Shown here piece after piece: positions 1-46,296 of a stretch of DNA of 46,296 nt. The position numbers and the translations under genes are program-made. The notes under the pieces were generated by a model. It searched no databases, was not told the origin of the DNA, and saw only the letters and a list, made by a program, of their open reading frames with translations. This DNA is from Myxococcales bacterium (GTDB taxonomy: Bacteria; Myxococcota; UBA727; GCA-2721815). The stretch is from NCBI GenBank assembly GCA_002721815.1, contig PBLQ01000062.1:1-46296 (forward strand). Reading direction: 5' to 3'. Every line of letters begins with the position of its first letter. The first letter of the stretch is position 1.

Positions 1-1111
1 AAAAGACCACTGCACTGACACCGATCAGGACCTTTTCTACGCCGCTTAACCCGGCGCTTTTTTGGGGTGAGGGTGCGATGCCAGATACCTCACCCAGCTC
101 GTCTCCTGTGACGATTTTATTGGTGAAGCCACTCAAGTCGGCACTGAGACTCATTTCACTTGAACCAGACATGGAGGTAGACATGGAACTCAAGGCCGAT
201 GCGACACTGTTTTCATCCAAATCATCGTCGTCTTTGGAATTGTCATCGAGGTTTTCACCGCCGCCCATCATGGGGTCTAAATCTTTGCCTTGCTGTGGAT
301 CTTCAATGTCTCCGAGTGCACTTTCTTCGTCGATGGATTCTTCATCTCGAGCAAAAGCGGGTAGTCCTTCGAGGGTTTGTAAGATGGCTGCGGTGGGGTC
401 TACAAAGGTAAGCCGTACTGCTCCAAGAAGGATTTCGTCTGCATCTCGCAATCGCTTGGGTTTACCAAGTTTCTTGTTGTTGAGGACCACCCCGTTTTTG
501 GAGCCAGCGTCATGAATGGTGATGTCATTCCAGTCACGCAAAATTTTGGCATGTTGTCTGGACACGTTGGCATCGTTGATTTGAAAATCACACTCATCTG
601 CACGGCCCACCAGCGCTTCGGTGAGGTCGGGACGTATCTCAAACTTTTGTCCTTCGGCGGGCCCGTTCATCACCCTTAAATAAGGGAGGTCTTGATGAGC
701 ACCAATGGTGGCCATGAGGTCGCCAACCATATTGCGCGCTGCTTGCGTGGGGTTGTCGTCTTGATCGATGTTGAGTTCGGGTTGAGGGCCGGACACATAC
801 TCCAAACTTAAATGAATGATCTTTAGGGTGTCACCGGGCCGAAAAAGGCGAACCCCGCCTTTGCCCACGTGTTGGCCATTGTGTTCGGTCCCGTGAGTGG
901 ATTTGAGATCTTCCACGTACCATTGGCCATCTTCATGCTTGAGGATGGCGTGGTTTCTAGAGGCGGTGGATAAGGGGATTTGAACATCGCTGGTTTCATC
1001 GCGACCAATGGTAATCATGGGCTTTTGAAATGTATACGACTCTGTCTTGGGTTCCACACCGGGAATCTCAAGTCGCATTTCTAAATGAATCGGCGATGAG
1101 GGTTCTTGCAT
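1..1111 (-). CDS. Two-FHA-domain protein with acidic linker (C-terminus beyond window)
   Basis: An open frame runs from an ATG at 1111 to the left edge with no stop, so at least 370 residues are present and the C-terminus is missing. Two forkhead-associated (phosphothreonine-binding) domains are visible. The first spans about 31-105, with TIGRDETSDV, STASRNHA and STHGTEHNG. The second spans about 145-237, with LVGRADECDFQI, VSRQHAKI and GSKNGVVLNN. An acidic, Ser/Met-rich linker follows (about 255-330), and a hydrophobic stretch begins near residue 360, suggesting a membrane segment at or past the edge. The start lies 9 nt after the stop of the TPR gene, so the two are probably co-transcribed. 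FHA domains usually read Ser/Thr-kinase signals. The output domain is unseen, so the specific role is unknown. Confidence 0.85.
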   Translation of the reverse strand, partial: MQEPSSPIHLEMRLEIPGVEPKTESYTFQKPMITIGRDETSDVQIPLSTASRNHAILKHEDGQWYVEDLKSTHGTEHNGQHVGKGGVRLFRPGDTLKIIHLSLEYVSGPQPELNIDQDDNPTQAARNMVGDLMATIGAHQDLPYLRVMNGPAEGQKFEIRPDLTEALVGRADECDFQINDANVSRQHAKILRDWNDITIHDAGSKNGVVLNNKKLGKPKRLRDADEILLGAVRLTFVDPTAAILQTLEGLPAFARDEESIDEESALGDIEDPQQGKDLDPMMGGGENLDDNSKDDDDLDENSVASALSSMSTSMSGSSEMSLSADLSGFTNKIVTGDELGEVSGIAPSPQKSAGLSGVEKVLIGVSAVVF

Positions 1112-1120
1112 GGACTCCGC

Positions 1121-2380
1121 TTACTCCACTTCCAATGCGCGAATGGTTTCTTTGCAGATGCCCAATTCGGTCGGATAACGTTCGTCGGTGTCACAGGAAA
1201 CAAAAGAACGGCAATGGTGGAGCGCCCGGGCGCTGTCAAGAACTGCCTCATAATGTTTGCCCAGCTGAAAGTGGGCCAAGCAAATGGTCTCATCCAGTTT
1301 GAGTGCATTTTCGCATTCGGTGACCGCCATATCGAGCAGCCCTTTGTTGAAAAGGGCCAAACAAAACCCATAATGGCCCATCCCGTAACCTGGGTTTTCT
1401 GCCAGCTGCACCATATAGGCTTGTAGGCTTTCTTCTTTGAGTTGCGAACCTTCGTATGCGATTTGTAGTTCGTGCTGGCAGACGGGGTTATTCTTGTCTT
1501 CTGCTAAGCATTGCACGTAGTGAAAAAGGGCTTCGTCATAGCGCCCAATAACCAGCAACACGTGGGCCAAGCTCTCGTGGCAGGCCCCATTGGTGCTGTT
1601 CAAATCCAAGCAACGGACAAAATAGCGTTCGGCGTCGAGTAGGTCGTTGCGCCGATCGTTTTCACTTTTCTCCATGGCCGCACGGTAGGTCATGATCAAC
1701 CCCATGTCGCGATAGGAATCGATGTGATTGGGATGTAATTCAAACATGCGCCGGTAGTGATCTTCGGCAATGCGAAAATCTTTCATCACCCGTTCGTGCC
1801 ATGTGTCGCGGGGGCCCGGCGGAGCGGCGCTCCACACTTGCTCTCCCAGATTGTTTTTGCCGTCCCCAATGAGGTTAGAGAGCTCTGCTTCGGCGCGCAC
1901 ACGGTTTTGCTCGCCCAAACGCAAGTGGGTCAGTGCCAGATTGTAGCGCGCATCTGCGTAACGGGGATCGATTTCCACCGCTGCCATAAACATGGGGGCT
2001 GCTTCTTCAAATCGGCCGTTTTTGAATCGCAACACACCTAAGTTGTTTCGGGCTTGCGCAAAGTCATTGTTTTCACGAATGGCTTTAAAAAAGAATTCAT
2101 CCGCTTTTGCATCCACCCCGCGGGCGTACCAAATCAAACCCATGCCATTGAGGCATTCTGGATTGCGCTCATCGTACTCCAAACAAATCTCGCATCGCGT
2201 TTCTGCGCGTTCAAAATCGCCCTGTTGGATGTTTTGGACACAGGCCTGTTGCTGGATGAGCATTTGGGGGTTGGCATCCGTACGCTGTCCACAGAAGGCC
2301 GCACCGGTCATGATGCATAGGCCCATCACCCCCAACAAGAGTTTTGAGCGTTTCATCCAAGAAGCCTGAGCCTGGTTCAT
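1121..2380 (-). CDS. Exported TPR-repeat protein
   Basis: A 419-residue protein with an N-terminal hydrophobic export signal (residues about 10-30, after MKRSK). Tandem tetratricopeptide repeats fill most of the rest; NPECLNGMGLIWYARGVD, DFAQARNNLGVLRFKNGRF and YADARYNLALTHLRLGE are clear units. Cysteines lie near the signal-peptide end, but none sits in a canonical lipobox, so I do not call it a lipoprotein. It overlaps the end of plsY by 4 nt and is followed 9 nt later by the FHA gene, suggesting one operon. Tgl/PilF-type pilus assembly TPR proteins are a possible comparison in deltaproteobacteria, but this protein is longer and lacks the lipobox, so that link is weak. Function: probably protein-protein scaffolding in the periplasm. 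Confidence 0.85.
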   Translation of the reverse strand: MNQAQASWMKRSKLLLGVMGLCIMTGAAFCGQRTDANPQMLIQQQACVQNIQQGDFERAETRCEICLEYDERNPECLNGMGLIWYARGVDAKADEFFFKAIRENNDFAQARNNLGVLRFKNGRFEEAAPMFMAAVEIDPRYADARYNLALTHLRLGEQNRVRAEAELSNLIGDGKNNLGEQVWSAAPPGPRDTWHERVMKDFRIAEDHYRRMFELHPNHIDSYRDMGLIMTYRAAMEKSENDRRNDLLDAERYFVRCLDLNSTNGACHESLAHVLLVIGRYDEALFHYVQCLAEDKNNPVCQHELQIAYEGSQLKEESLQAYMVQLAENPGYGMGHYGFCLALFNKGLLDMAVTECENALKLDETICLAHFQLGKHYEAVLDSARALHHCRSFVSCDTDERYPTELGICKETIRALEVE

Positions 2381-2976
2381 ATAGACAGTTCCTTTCTCTG
2401 CATCAGTCTGGAAATATTGCTTTTATGCCTAAAAATCAAAATCAAAACCAGTAGACTGACGCAGATTTGGGTCAGCAAGTCCATCTGGGAGGACCAAGTG
2501 ACCACCACTGCGGTGACGGCCCCCGCCAAGGAGCCCAGACTGACCTTCTTTTGCAGCAGGTAAACCACTAAAAATGCTGCCAAACCCGATATTGCGGCGG
2601 TGGGCACCAGCAGCAGCATGACCCCCAGTCCAGTGGCCACCCCTTTACCGCCATTAAATTTCAGCCAAGGTGTGAAACAATGCCCCAAAAAGGCAAACAG
2701 ACCCAAAACGGCGGCGGTACCTGCCGGCAAGGCCAAATGGAAAGCTGTGAGCACACAGGCGAGCCCTTTGCAAATGTCCAAAACCAGGGTGACAATGCCC
2801 AGCTTTTTACCGGCCACACGCGCCACATTGGTGGCCCCAATATTACCACTGCCTTCCTTTTTAATGTCTTTTTTGAGGATGAACCGGACCAGCAAATAGC
2901 CAAATGGAATGGCACCCACGAAGAAACTTATGGCTGCACCAACGATCATCGTCATGTCTATTGTGAAAGGGGCCAC
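2377..2976 (-). CDS. plsY: Glycerol-3-phosphate acyltransferase PlsY
   Basis: PlsY transfers an acyl group from acyl-phosphate to glycerol-3-phosphate at the inner membrane, the first step of phosphatidic acid synthesis. The 199-residue length matches the family. The signature loops are present: GSGNIGATNVAR at about 42-53 and FNGGKGVATGLG at about 107-118, between several hydrophobic membrane helices. The start is a GTG at 2976, preceded by an AGGAG at good spacing; methionines at residues 8 and 10 are alternatives. It sits 16 nt downstream of the zinc-ribbon/Yip1 gene and overlaps the TPR gene by 4 nt. plsX is not in the window. Confidence 0.96.
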   Translation of the reverse strand: MAPFTIDMTMIVGAAISFFVGAIPFGYLLVRFILKKDIKKEGSGNIGATNVARVAGKKLGIVTLVLDICKGLACVLTAFHLALPAGTAAVLGLFAFLGHCFTPWLKFNGGKGVATGLGVMLLLVPTAAISGLAAFLVVYLLQKKVSLGSLAGAVTAVVVTWSSQMDLLTQICVSLLVLILIFRHKSNISRLMQRKELSI

Positions 2977-2992
2977 TGTGCGTCTCCTGTGA

Positions 2993-3844
2993 TTAACTCA
3001 AATGGGGGAAGAAGGTGAGAAGAATGTAAAGACTGACCCGGTGGAGGGCGCTGGACCATAAAATCTTCAGCAGCATTCCCGTACTCAACACCGTTACCAT
3101 GGCACGTGCGAAGCTGATTTGATGAAATCGGACCAATCCCCGGATGAGCAAGACGCCCGTCCAGCCGGTGGCCAACAAAAGACCCAAAGTGGGAATGGTC
3201 GCGAAAATGAAGGGCGCCTGGGCGTAAGCGACCCACCGGAGCGTTAAATCGTAGGGCGGTGATTCGGCTTCAGGCCCTTGCATGGACCGGCCCAGAAAAT
3301 GACAGCTGCCCGCAATTAAATGGATGGCAAAAAAGGCGATGAGTGGGGCCAGGATAAACTCCAGGTGTGCCTGCACGGTGGCCAGGTGGATAAGGTAAGA
3401 TAAATCCTCGGGGTTAGGTTGAGATTCGCCGTTGCCCAGCAAGGCCCCCAACAGCGCATTTTCTTTAGATCCCTGAAAAATGGTGTCTAGGCTTTGGCCT
3501 GCCAGGGAGATCAGCCAAAAGGCGGAGATGCTTTGCCCCAAAAAGAGCACCCAGACCCCAAAAATGAAGGCTTTATTGCTGCTTGGCGCTTTTTCCTGGT
3601 GGGCGGCCATGTGTTCGAAGAATCGGGTGGGCCTCAAGATGACCTGGGCCAGGGTACCCCAGAATCTGGCGATGGAGCCGATATTGTCGAGTTCCATCAG
3701 AGGCCCAAAATCACCTAAGTCTCTGTTTTCCTTCGGTGAAGTAGCCTTTTCAGCACTCAACAGTTCACCGCACATGGGGCAACATCCCGCCTGAACTTTG
3801 GTGGTGACATAGGTTGTTTCGCAATGTGGGCACTGATCCAGCAC
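2993..3844 (-). CDS. Zinc-ribbon plus Yip1-like integral membrane protein
   Basis: A 283-residue protein. The N-terminus is a small zinc ribbon, CPHCETTY followed by CCPMCGELL (two CxxC pairs, residues 5-26), the MJ0042/DUF-type ribbon often seen at the start of deltaproteobacterial membrane proteins. After a short linker, from about residue 60, comes a Yip1-like domain: an amphipathic RFWGTLAQVILRPTRFFEHM segment, then about five hydrophobic helices. Yip1-like proteins have no settled bacterial function; roles in membrane organisation have been suggested. It appears to be the first gene of a four-gene minus-strand unit. It is separated by about 165 nt from the divergent Hsp70 gene, so promoters for both probably lie between them. 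Confidence 0.8.
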   Translation of the reverse strand: MLDQCPHCETTYVTTKVQAGCCPMCGELLSAEKATSPKENRDLGDFGPLMELDNIGSIARFWGTLAQVILRPTRFFEHMAAHQEKAPSSNKAFIFGVWVLFLGQSISAFWLISLAGQSLDTIFQGSKENALLGALLGNGESQPNPEDLSYLIHLATVQAHLEFILAPLIAFFAIHLIAGSCHFLGRSMQGPEAESPPYDLTLRWVAYAQAPFIFATIPTLGLLLATGWTGVLLIRGLVRFHQISFARAMVTVLSTGMLLKILWSSALHRVSLYILLTFFPHLS

Positions 3845-44542: not shown

Positions 44543-46096
44543 TTAGCTGATTTCCTTGTGGCTTTCAACTGGCTCGTTCTTAGACAGTCTGGCCTTCAGG
44601 CTGGCAAACGCGTTAAAGGCGGTTTCTTCCTCGGTTTCCTCGATGGGTTTGGGGGTATCCAAGGTTTTTGCCGGGATATTTTCAAGGAAGCGTGAGGGTT
44701 CTCGCTTGATTCTTTCATGACGACGTCTGCGCCACTGGGCGTAAGACAAGACCAATTGGGCTTTCGCCCGGGTGATGCCCACGTAGCAAAGACGTCTTTC
44801 CTCTTGAACACCTGTGTCGCCACTCTCTTCAAGGGAACGTCGATGGGGTAACAGCCCTTCTTCAAAGCCCACTAAGTATACTTTTTCAAATTCGAGACCT
44901 TTGGCTGCATGGAGGGACATGAGGGTGACTTTGCCTTTGCTGGTCTTGCTCTTGTCTTCTTCTCGGAGGTCTTCTTTGTCTTCCAGGGACAATTTTTGCA
45001 AAAAGGCGCGCAGTACGGATCGTTTGGTGTCGATGCTTTCATGGGCCCGTGGGTTGGATTTGGCCTCTTCGTATTGCTCGCAGAAGAGCGCCAGTGCATC
45101 GAAGAACCCTTGATGCGCTTCCCGGATACGATCTCGGATTTTCGGGTCTTTTTCTTCAGCAACCCATCGTTTGTACCCGGCGTCTTGAATGGCCCGTTCG
45201 CAAATGGCAACCATTTGACGTGGATGTGCTTTTTGGGCTGCCTGAGCCGCTTCAAAAAGGGGGGCAGCAAAAGAGATCAAGCTTTGTTGCGCGGTCTTTT
45301 TGAGATCGAGTCCTGGGGCACCGGCTGCAGAAAAAGCCAGAAAACTTTGTTTGGCTTGTGGCGCGTTATCTACCAGTCGTTCGAGCGTTTTGTGCCCGAT
45401 TCCCCGGGCCGGGAAGTTCACCATGCGGCGAAAACTCATCTCGTTACCGGGATAGTCAATGAGAGAGAGCCAGGCCAAAAGGTTTTTTACTTCTTTGGTA
45501 TCGAAGAACGAAGTCCCGCCAACGATTTTGTAGGGAATGGCTTGCTGGCGAAGAGATTCTTCGAACAATCTGCTTTGGGGGTTGGCGCGATAAAGCAGTG
45601 CAATATTGTGCGCGGGCATGCCACGCTTGTGTAAGTCGTCGTGGATGTTGAGGGCTACCGTTTCGGCTTCCTTAGAACCATCCTCGCATTCGAGAACTTT
45701 AATTTTGTTGCCTGGTCCGAGATTGGAGAAAAGCTTCTTCCCTTTGCGGTGCGGATTTTTTGAGATAACGCCGTGGGCAGCGGTGAGAATGTTTTGGTAC
45801 GAGCGGTAGTTTTCTTCAAGCTTGATCACCCGGCATGGCGCGAAGTCTTGTTCAAAACGTAAAATGTTTTCAATGTTGGCCCCACGAAAAGCGTAGATGG
45901 CTTGATCGTCATCGCCCACCGCACACACTTGACATTGGGGGCTGGCGAGCAGCTGGATCAAGGACAACTGTAATGGATTGGTGTCTTGATATTCGTCGAT
46001 AAGTAGGTGGTGAATGCGTTCTTGGAGCTGGTTTCTTATGTCAACATTTTGTTGCAGCAGTTCTCTCGCTAGCAATAACAAATCGTCAAAGTCCAC
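44543..46096 (-). CDS. UvrD/PcrA-family DNA helicase, 5'-truncated
   Basis: The intact frame (517 residues from GTG 46096) begins DFDDLLLLAREL, a segment that lies about 200 residues into full UvrD/PcrA proteins. Motif II (LLIDEYQDTN), III (VGDDDQAIYAFRGA), IV-V (VTLMSLHAAKGLEFEKVYLVGF) and VI (RRLCYVGITRAKAQL) are intact. The Q motif, Walker A and motif Ia are missing. The homologous frame continues upstream as YPLYQENLKALQLV, then meets a TAA at 46145-46147. Beyond that the DNA is AT-rich and unrelated. As it stands the protein cannot bind ATP, so this is a broken gene, an insertion junction or a chimeric contig end. Confidence 0.9.
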   Translation of the reverse strand: MDFDDLLLLARELLQQNVDIRNQLQERIHHLLIDEYQDTNPLQLSLIQLLASPQCQVCAVGDDDQAIYAFRGANIENILRFEQDFAPCRVIKLEENYRSYQNILTAAHGVISKNPHRKGKKLFSNLGPGNKIKVLECEDGSKEAETVALNIHDDLHKRGMPAHNIALLYRANPQSRLFEESLRQQAIPYKIVGGTSFFDTKEVKNLLAWLSLIDYPGNEMSFRRMVNFPARGIGHKTLERLVDNAPQAKQSFLAFSAAGAPGLDLKKTAQQSLISFAAPLFEAAQAAQKAHPRQMVAICERAIQDAGYKRWVAEEKDPKIRDRIREAHQGFFDALALFCEQYEEAKSNPRAHESIDTKRSVLRAFLQKLSLEDKEDLREEDKSKTSKGKVTLMSLHAAKGLEFEKVYLVGFEEGLLPHRRSLEESGDTGVQEERRLCYVGITRAKAQLVLSYAQWRRRRHERIKREPSRFLENIPAKTLDTPKPIEETEEETAFNAFASLKARLSKNEPVESHKEIS

Positions 46097-46295
46097 TAAC
46101 TGGAGTGCCTTGAGGTTTTCTTGGTAAAGGGGGTAGGTAAGACGTTAGCTTATGCGATGCTCCCTGCCGTTTTGCTCGCTTTTTGCTTTTATCAACTTCT
46201 GATCTTTGTTTATTGAAATCTATTTTATTAATACCTCCAAATACCAAACTTTTTAAAGTATCACGCTTGTGCAGCCACTTATCGTGATTATCTAG
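46086..46295 (-). CDS. Unidentified Lys-rich ORF entering from the right edge
   Basis: In the minus-strand frame shifted from uvrD, 69 codons are open from the window edge to a TGA at 46086, reading into the uvrD coding strand out of frame. The visible part is Lys/Arg-rich (DKWLHKRDTLKSLVFGG, then VDKSKKRAKRQGASHKL) and uses AT-rich codons in its first two thirds. I do not recognise it. It may be the C-terminus of a protein carried by inserted DNA, extended by chance into the uvrD sequence, since the last 18 or so codons overlap the host gene. Confidence 0.35.
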   Translation of the reverse strand, partial: LDNHDKWLHKRDTLKSLVFGGINKIDFNKQRSEVDKSKKRAKRQGASHKLTSYLPPLPRKPQGTPVSGL

Positions 46296-46296
46296 T
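46145..46296. other. AT-rich segment of foreign composition at window edge
   Basis: By my count 56 of the 156 bases from 46141 to 46296 are G or C (36 percent), with only about 22 percent in 46181-46260, well below the rest of the window. It begins where the uvrD homology stops. I see no clear terminal inverted repeat, target duplication or group II intron domain V in the part visible. Confidence 0.6.

Follow-up and report, generated by a model that had tools for sequence, protein, structure and literature searches.

A helicase gene that appears interrupted at a contig tip is probably an intact uvrD/pcrA gene at an assembly break

The UvrD/PcrA/Rep SF1 DNA helicases (PF00580, PF13361; TIGR01073, TIGR01074) are recognized by an N-terminal domain with the Walker A motif and a C-terminal domain, both in a single collinear frame. 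A gene that is interrupted by an IS or an intron shows a sudden loss of homology, a change in composition and an in-frame stop, and in draft assemblies of the metagenome type a gene can also be cut by a contig break at which strain variants overlap. The window analysed here is the complete contig C62 (46,296 nt), one of the 74 contigs of a draft assembly of 4.60 Mb with a completeness of 98.3% and a contamination of 2.6%. It ends in a helicase gene followed by a short piece of unrelated DNA, here called the flap. We consider it very probable that this is an intact, ordinary uvrD/pcrA gene at an assembly break, with the flap being a short false extension or at most a variant of a minor strain.

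On the minus strand, the helicase frame with its stop at 44543 could be traced back to RLTYPLYQENLKALQLVDFDD, reads RLTYPLYQENLKALQLVDFDDLLLL at the junction and then meets the TAA at 46145-46147. Alignment to the intact copy on contig C56 showed that the UvrD/PcrA homology stops at 46136/46137. As the window is all of C62, this junction is only 160 bases away from the contig end, and the GC content of these terminal bases contrasts with a mean of approximately 51-52% for the contig ends in the same assembly. A sequence-only reading of the window had described an abrupt end of the UvrD/PcrA homology with this in-frame TAA, which was confirmed by the minus-strand frame and by the C56 alignment. 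The AT-rich terminal DNA (36% GC) that it had called unrelated was likewise confirmed for the last 160 bases, which show no relation to uvrD. Its foreign DNA from about 46141 was right as to the existence of a junction but not as to the exact place, as the homology reaches its limit approximately 5 bases away, at 46136.

The fragment encoded in C62 matched Pfam UvrD_C (3.9e-66) and matched the NCBIfam Rep/PcrA models from position ~166-169, and it covered Pfam UvrD-helicase (PF00580) only at profile positions 172-270 of 271. The latter match begins at position 172, so the window lacks the N-terminal portion that contains Walker A. This absence had been recognized from the sequence alone, but the number of missing residues is about 166 and not about 200. 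The features of the contig end are collected in Table 1.

Table 1. Features at the C62 end of the window
Feature	Position	Strand	Evidence or reading
SF1 helicase of the UvrD/PcrA/Rep type, C-terminal ~530 codons, frame kept up to the junction	44543..46136	-	Pfam, NCBIfam
Overlap with the end of C56 (C56:63486-63805), 320 bases	45817..46136	-	314/320 identical, no gaps
Terminal flap of 160 bases (36% GC), without relation to uvrD and without a homologue in the searches	46137..46296		Spurious tip or minor-strain variant
TAA in the helicase frame, within the flap	46145..46147	-	Reading frame

With the junction DNA and the helicase fragment as queries, a search of the assembly led to the end of C56. 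Identity over the overlap is 98.1%; of the six differences, one is a Q/E exchange and the other five are synonymous. C56 runs 320 bases beyond the junction as unbroken uvrD sequence, and upstream of the junction its frame extends intact to an ATG at C56:62986, with LAGAGSGKT as Walker A and a stretch of 273 codons that matches positions 2-275 of the TIGR01073 PcrA model. Joined together, C56 and C62 give one continuous helicase frame of 697 codons, in which the N-terminal domain with Walker A and the C-terminal domain of the UvrD/PcrA/Rep group are both present and collinear. The joined protein is collinear with eight relatives at 39-48% identity, from residues 1-4 to residues 654-689; the frames of these relatives comprise 696-837 codons, and the alignment has no break at the position of the junction. 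The C56 copy was the sole N-terminal half of uvrD found in the assembly, the further helicase matches being paralogues with 23-35% identity. The N-terminal half that was to be looked for on the far side of the flap does therefore exist, but it is located on C56 and continues uninterrupted through the junction.

The abrupt change in homology and composition and the in-frame stop would also be expected if the helicase gene of the organism as a whole were split by an IS, an intron or another element. This reading is largely refuted by C56, which in the same assembly is uninterrupted over the junction, and we regard it as highly improbable. The searches with the flap argue against it as well. No homologue or other copy of the flap was detected in 195 genomes of the phylum, either as DNA or as protein. 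An intron is not supported, as the region 45800-46296, in which the 160 flap bases are all that is visible of any insert, gave no hit to Rfam at E values up to 5, and the suggested intron boundaries at the junction were thus not found. Repeats near the junction, including terminal inverted repeats, were absent around the one edge of any insert that is present (160 bases), and the frame in the flap matched no transposase or other protein family within the same 160 bases. With neither junction repeats nor an intron, a family match or a second N-terminal half of the gene, the proposal of the sequence-only reading that an insertion had split the gene found no support.

Other collections gave no source for the flap either. 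Matches within its own genome did not exceed chance, and 16 genomes of the order gave just two matches of 23-25 bases, which we took as chance. There was no homologue in plasmids and phages at the DNA or protein level, the best match in that search being a microvirus (44 bases at 84%, E = 0.01) that was also taken as chance, and none among viral contigs by protein comparison. Exact flap patterns of 22 and 20 bases were not found in the genome and viral collections, and a flap source that would prove a mis-join was not found in the collections searched. An open-ended frame of 69 codons (window 46086-46295, minus strand) crosses the junction and has 53 codons inside the flap. It was rejected as a gene, as its length was equalled in 13% of shuffles and it had no family match.

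The C62 haplotype differs from that of C56 by 6 SNPs in the 320 overlapping bases, with the nearest SNP 16 bases from the junction. As C62 has its own SNPs so close by, the haplotype that carries the flap is not the one assembled in C56, and for this reason a true variant in a co-existing minor strain has to be weighed. Such a strain would carry a real structural variant (insertion, deletion or rearrangement) with the flap as its boundary, and uvrD would be truncated there only. The linkage of the SNPs to the flap and the lack of a flap match elsewhere in the assembly are in favour of this, and a rearrangement in a minor strain would look the same as a flap on the distinct C62 haplotype. On the other hand, the junction is without repeats, there is no match to a mobile element, intron or phage, the assembly holds no second N-terminal half, and an unrelated gene shows the same arrangement, as described below. 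We therefore judge a minor-strain variant to be unlikely, and slightly more doubtful still is the specific case in which uvrD in a minor strain of the sampled population is truncated by an uncharacterised AT-rich element that has the 160-base flap as its edge.

A comparison of the two ends of each of the 74 contigs gave approximately 20 head-on overlaps between contig ends. The majority are gap-free and flush on either side; examples of the overlaps are C14/C41 with 899 bases at 90.9% and C4/C9 with 515 bases at 92.8%. At many places in the assembly the overlaps have about 90-98% identity and differ mainly at third positions. Over the ten pairs that were taken as simple overlaps, to which this count is limited, 49, 39 and 179 differences fell on codon positions 1, 2 and 3, respectively, which indicates strain divergence in coding sequence and not sequencing error. 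Errors of noisy reads were rejected as the origin of these differences on the basis of the third-position bias and the near absence of indels. A fixed k-mer overlap was also rejected, as the terminal exact matches range from 30 to 109 bases in length and no single k is visible. From the contig ends, and not from the assembly record, the draft appears to mix closely related strains in a metagenome-type assembly. Repeats, rather than clear overlaps between strains, seem to underlie C46/C48, C2/C37, C21/C4, C17/C3 and other pairs that have multiple matches.

At its opposite end, in positions 1-3390, C56 encodes a large protein with an open end and a length of at least 1129 residues, in which 'CPSNSTRQNDDSCACDSNYEWN' units recur together with 'DVDGDGDMDILSAS..DDKIAWYENDG' repeats that by eye resemble FG-GAP/VCBS. 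C13 and C27 carry similar sequence at their 5' ends, with a DNA identity of roughly 63-80%, and repeats of this type probably caused the breaks at those contig ends.

Among the simple pairs, C56/C62 and C61/C72 are the only two that are not flush. C72 starts with a flap (positions 1-73, 33% GC) without any match in the assembly, followed by a gene for a UgpC/MalK-like ATPase that lacks its N-terminus. The end of C61 carries the intact N-terminal half of this gene, with GPSGCGKST as Walker A, and overlaps C72 by 228 bases at 96.5% (C61:258918-259145). At the tips of two contigs, unrelated genes are thus cut alike by AT-rich flaps that also have nothing in common, which argues for a property of the assembly and not of uvrD.

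We infer a mis-join as the origin of the flap, in preference to true minor-strain sequence. One haplotype of the front half of uvrD would have been assembled to the end of C56, while the remainder of the gene is in C62; most likely the assembler was unable to merge the two strain haplotypes and followed a short false path at the end of one contig, which became longer by it. The AT-rich tip of C62 would then be a mis-joined read or graph tip, and it would have stopped C56 and C62 from being merged. A chimeric assembly end had been the other suggestion made from the sequence. Its contig-end component stands, with the N-terminal half on C56, and the choice of a chimera over a true minor-strain variant is the part that we deduce.

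For annotation, the uvrD of this genome should be recorded neither as a pseudogene nor as the site of an insertion. Contig tips that are spurious or come from a minor strain, which this draft carries on C62 and C72, can give the appearance of a disrupted gene. Under the minor-strain reading, the case would represent an ordinary strain-level loss of a DNA-repair helicase.

In comparison with known systems, the C62 end shares with IS- or intron-interrupted genes the features named at the outset, but neither terminal repeats nor an intron structure, a second half or further copies were found, and the assembly contains an uninterrupted copy. As a UvrD/PcrA/Rep SF1 helicase, the gene on C56 and C62 is full-length and collinear, with 697 aa and Walker A, and shows nothing unusual besides the contig break. 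It agrees best with a strain-variant contig break in a metagenome-type draft: the junction is near the end of C62, intact overlapping sequence is present on the end of C56, and the overlap is head-on and gap-free like the others of this assembly. The difference is that the overlap is not flush, as C62 carries a 160-base unrelated tip, comparable to the tip of 73 bases on C72.
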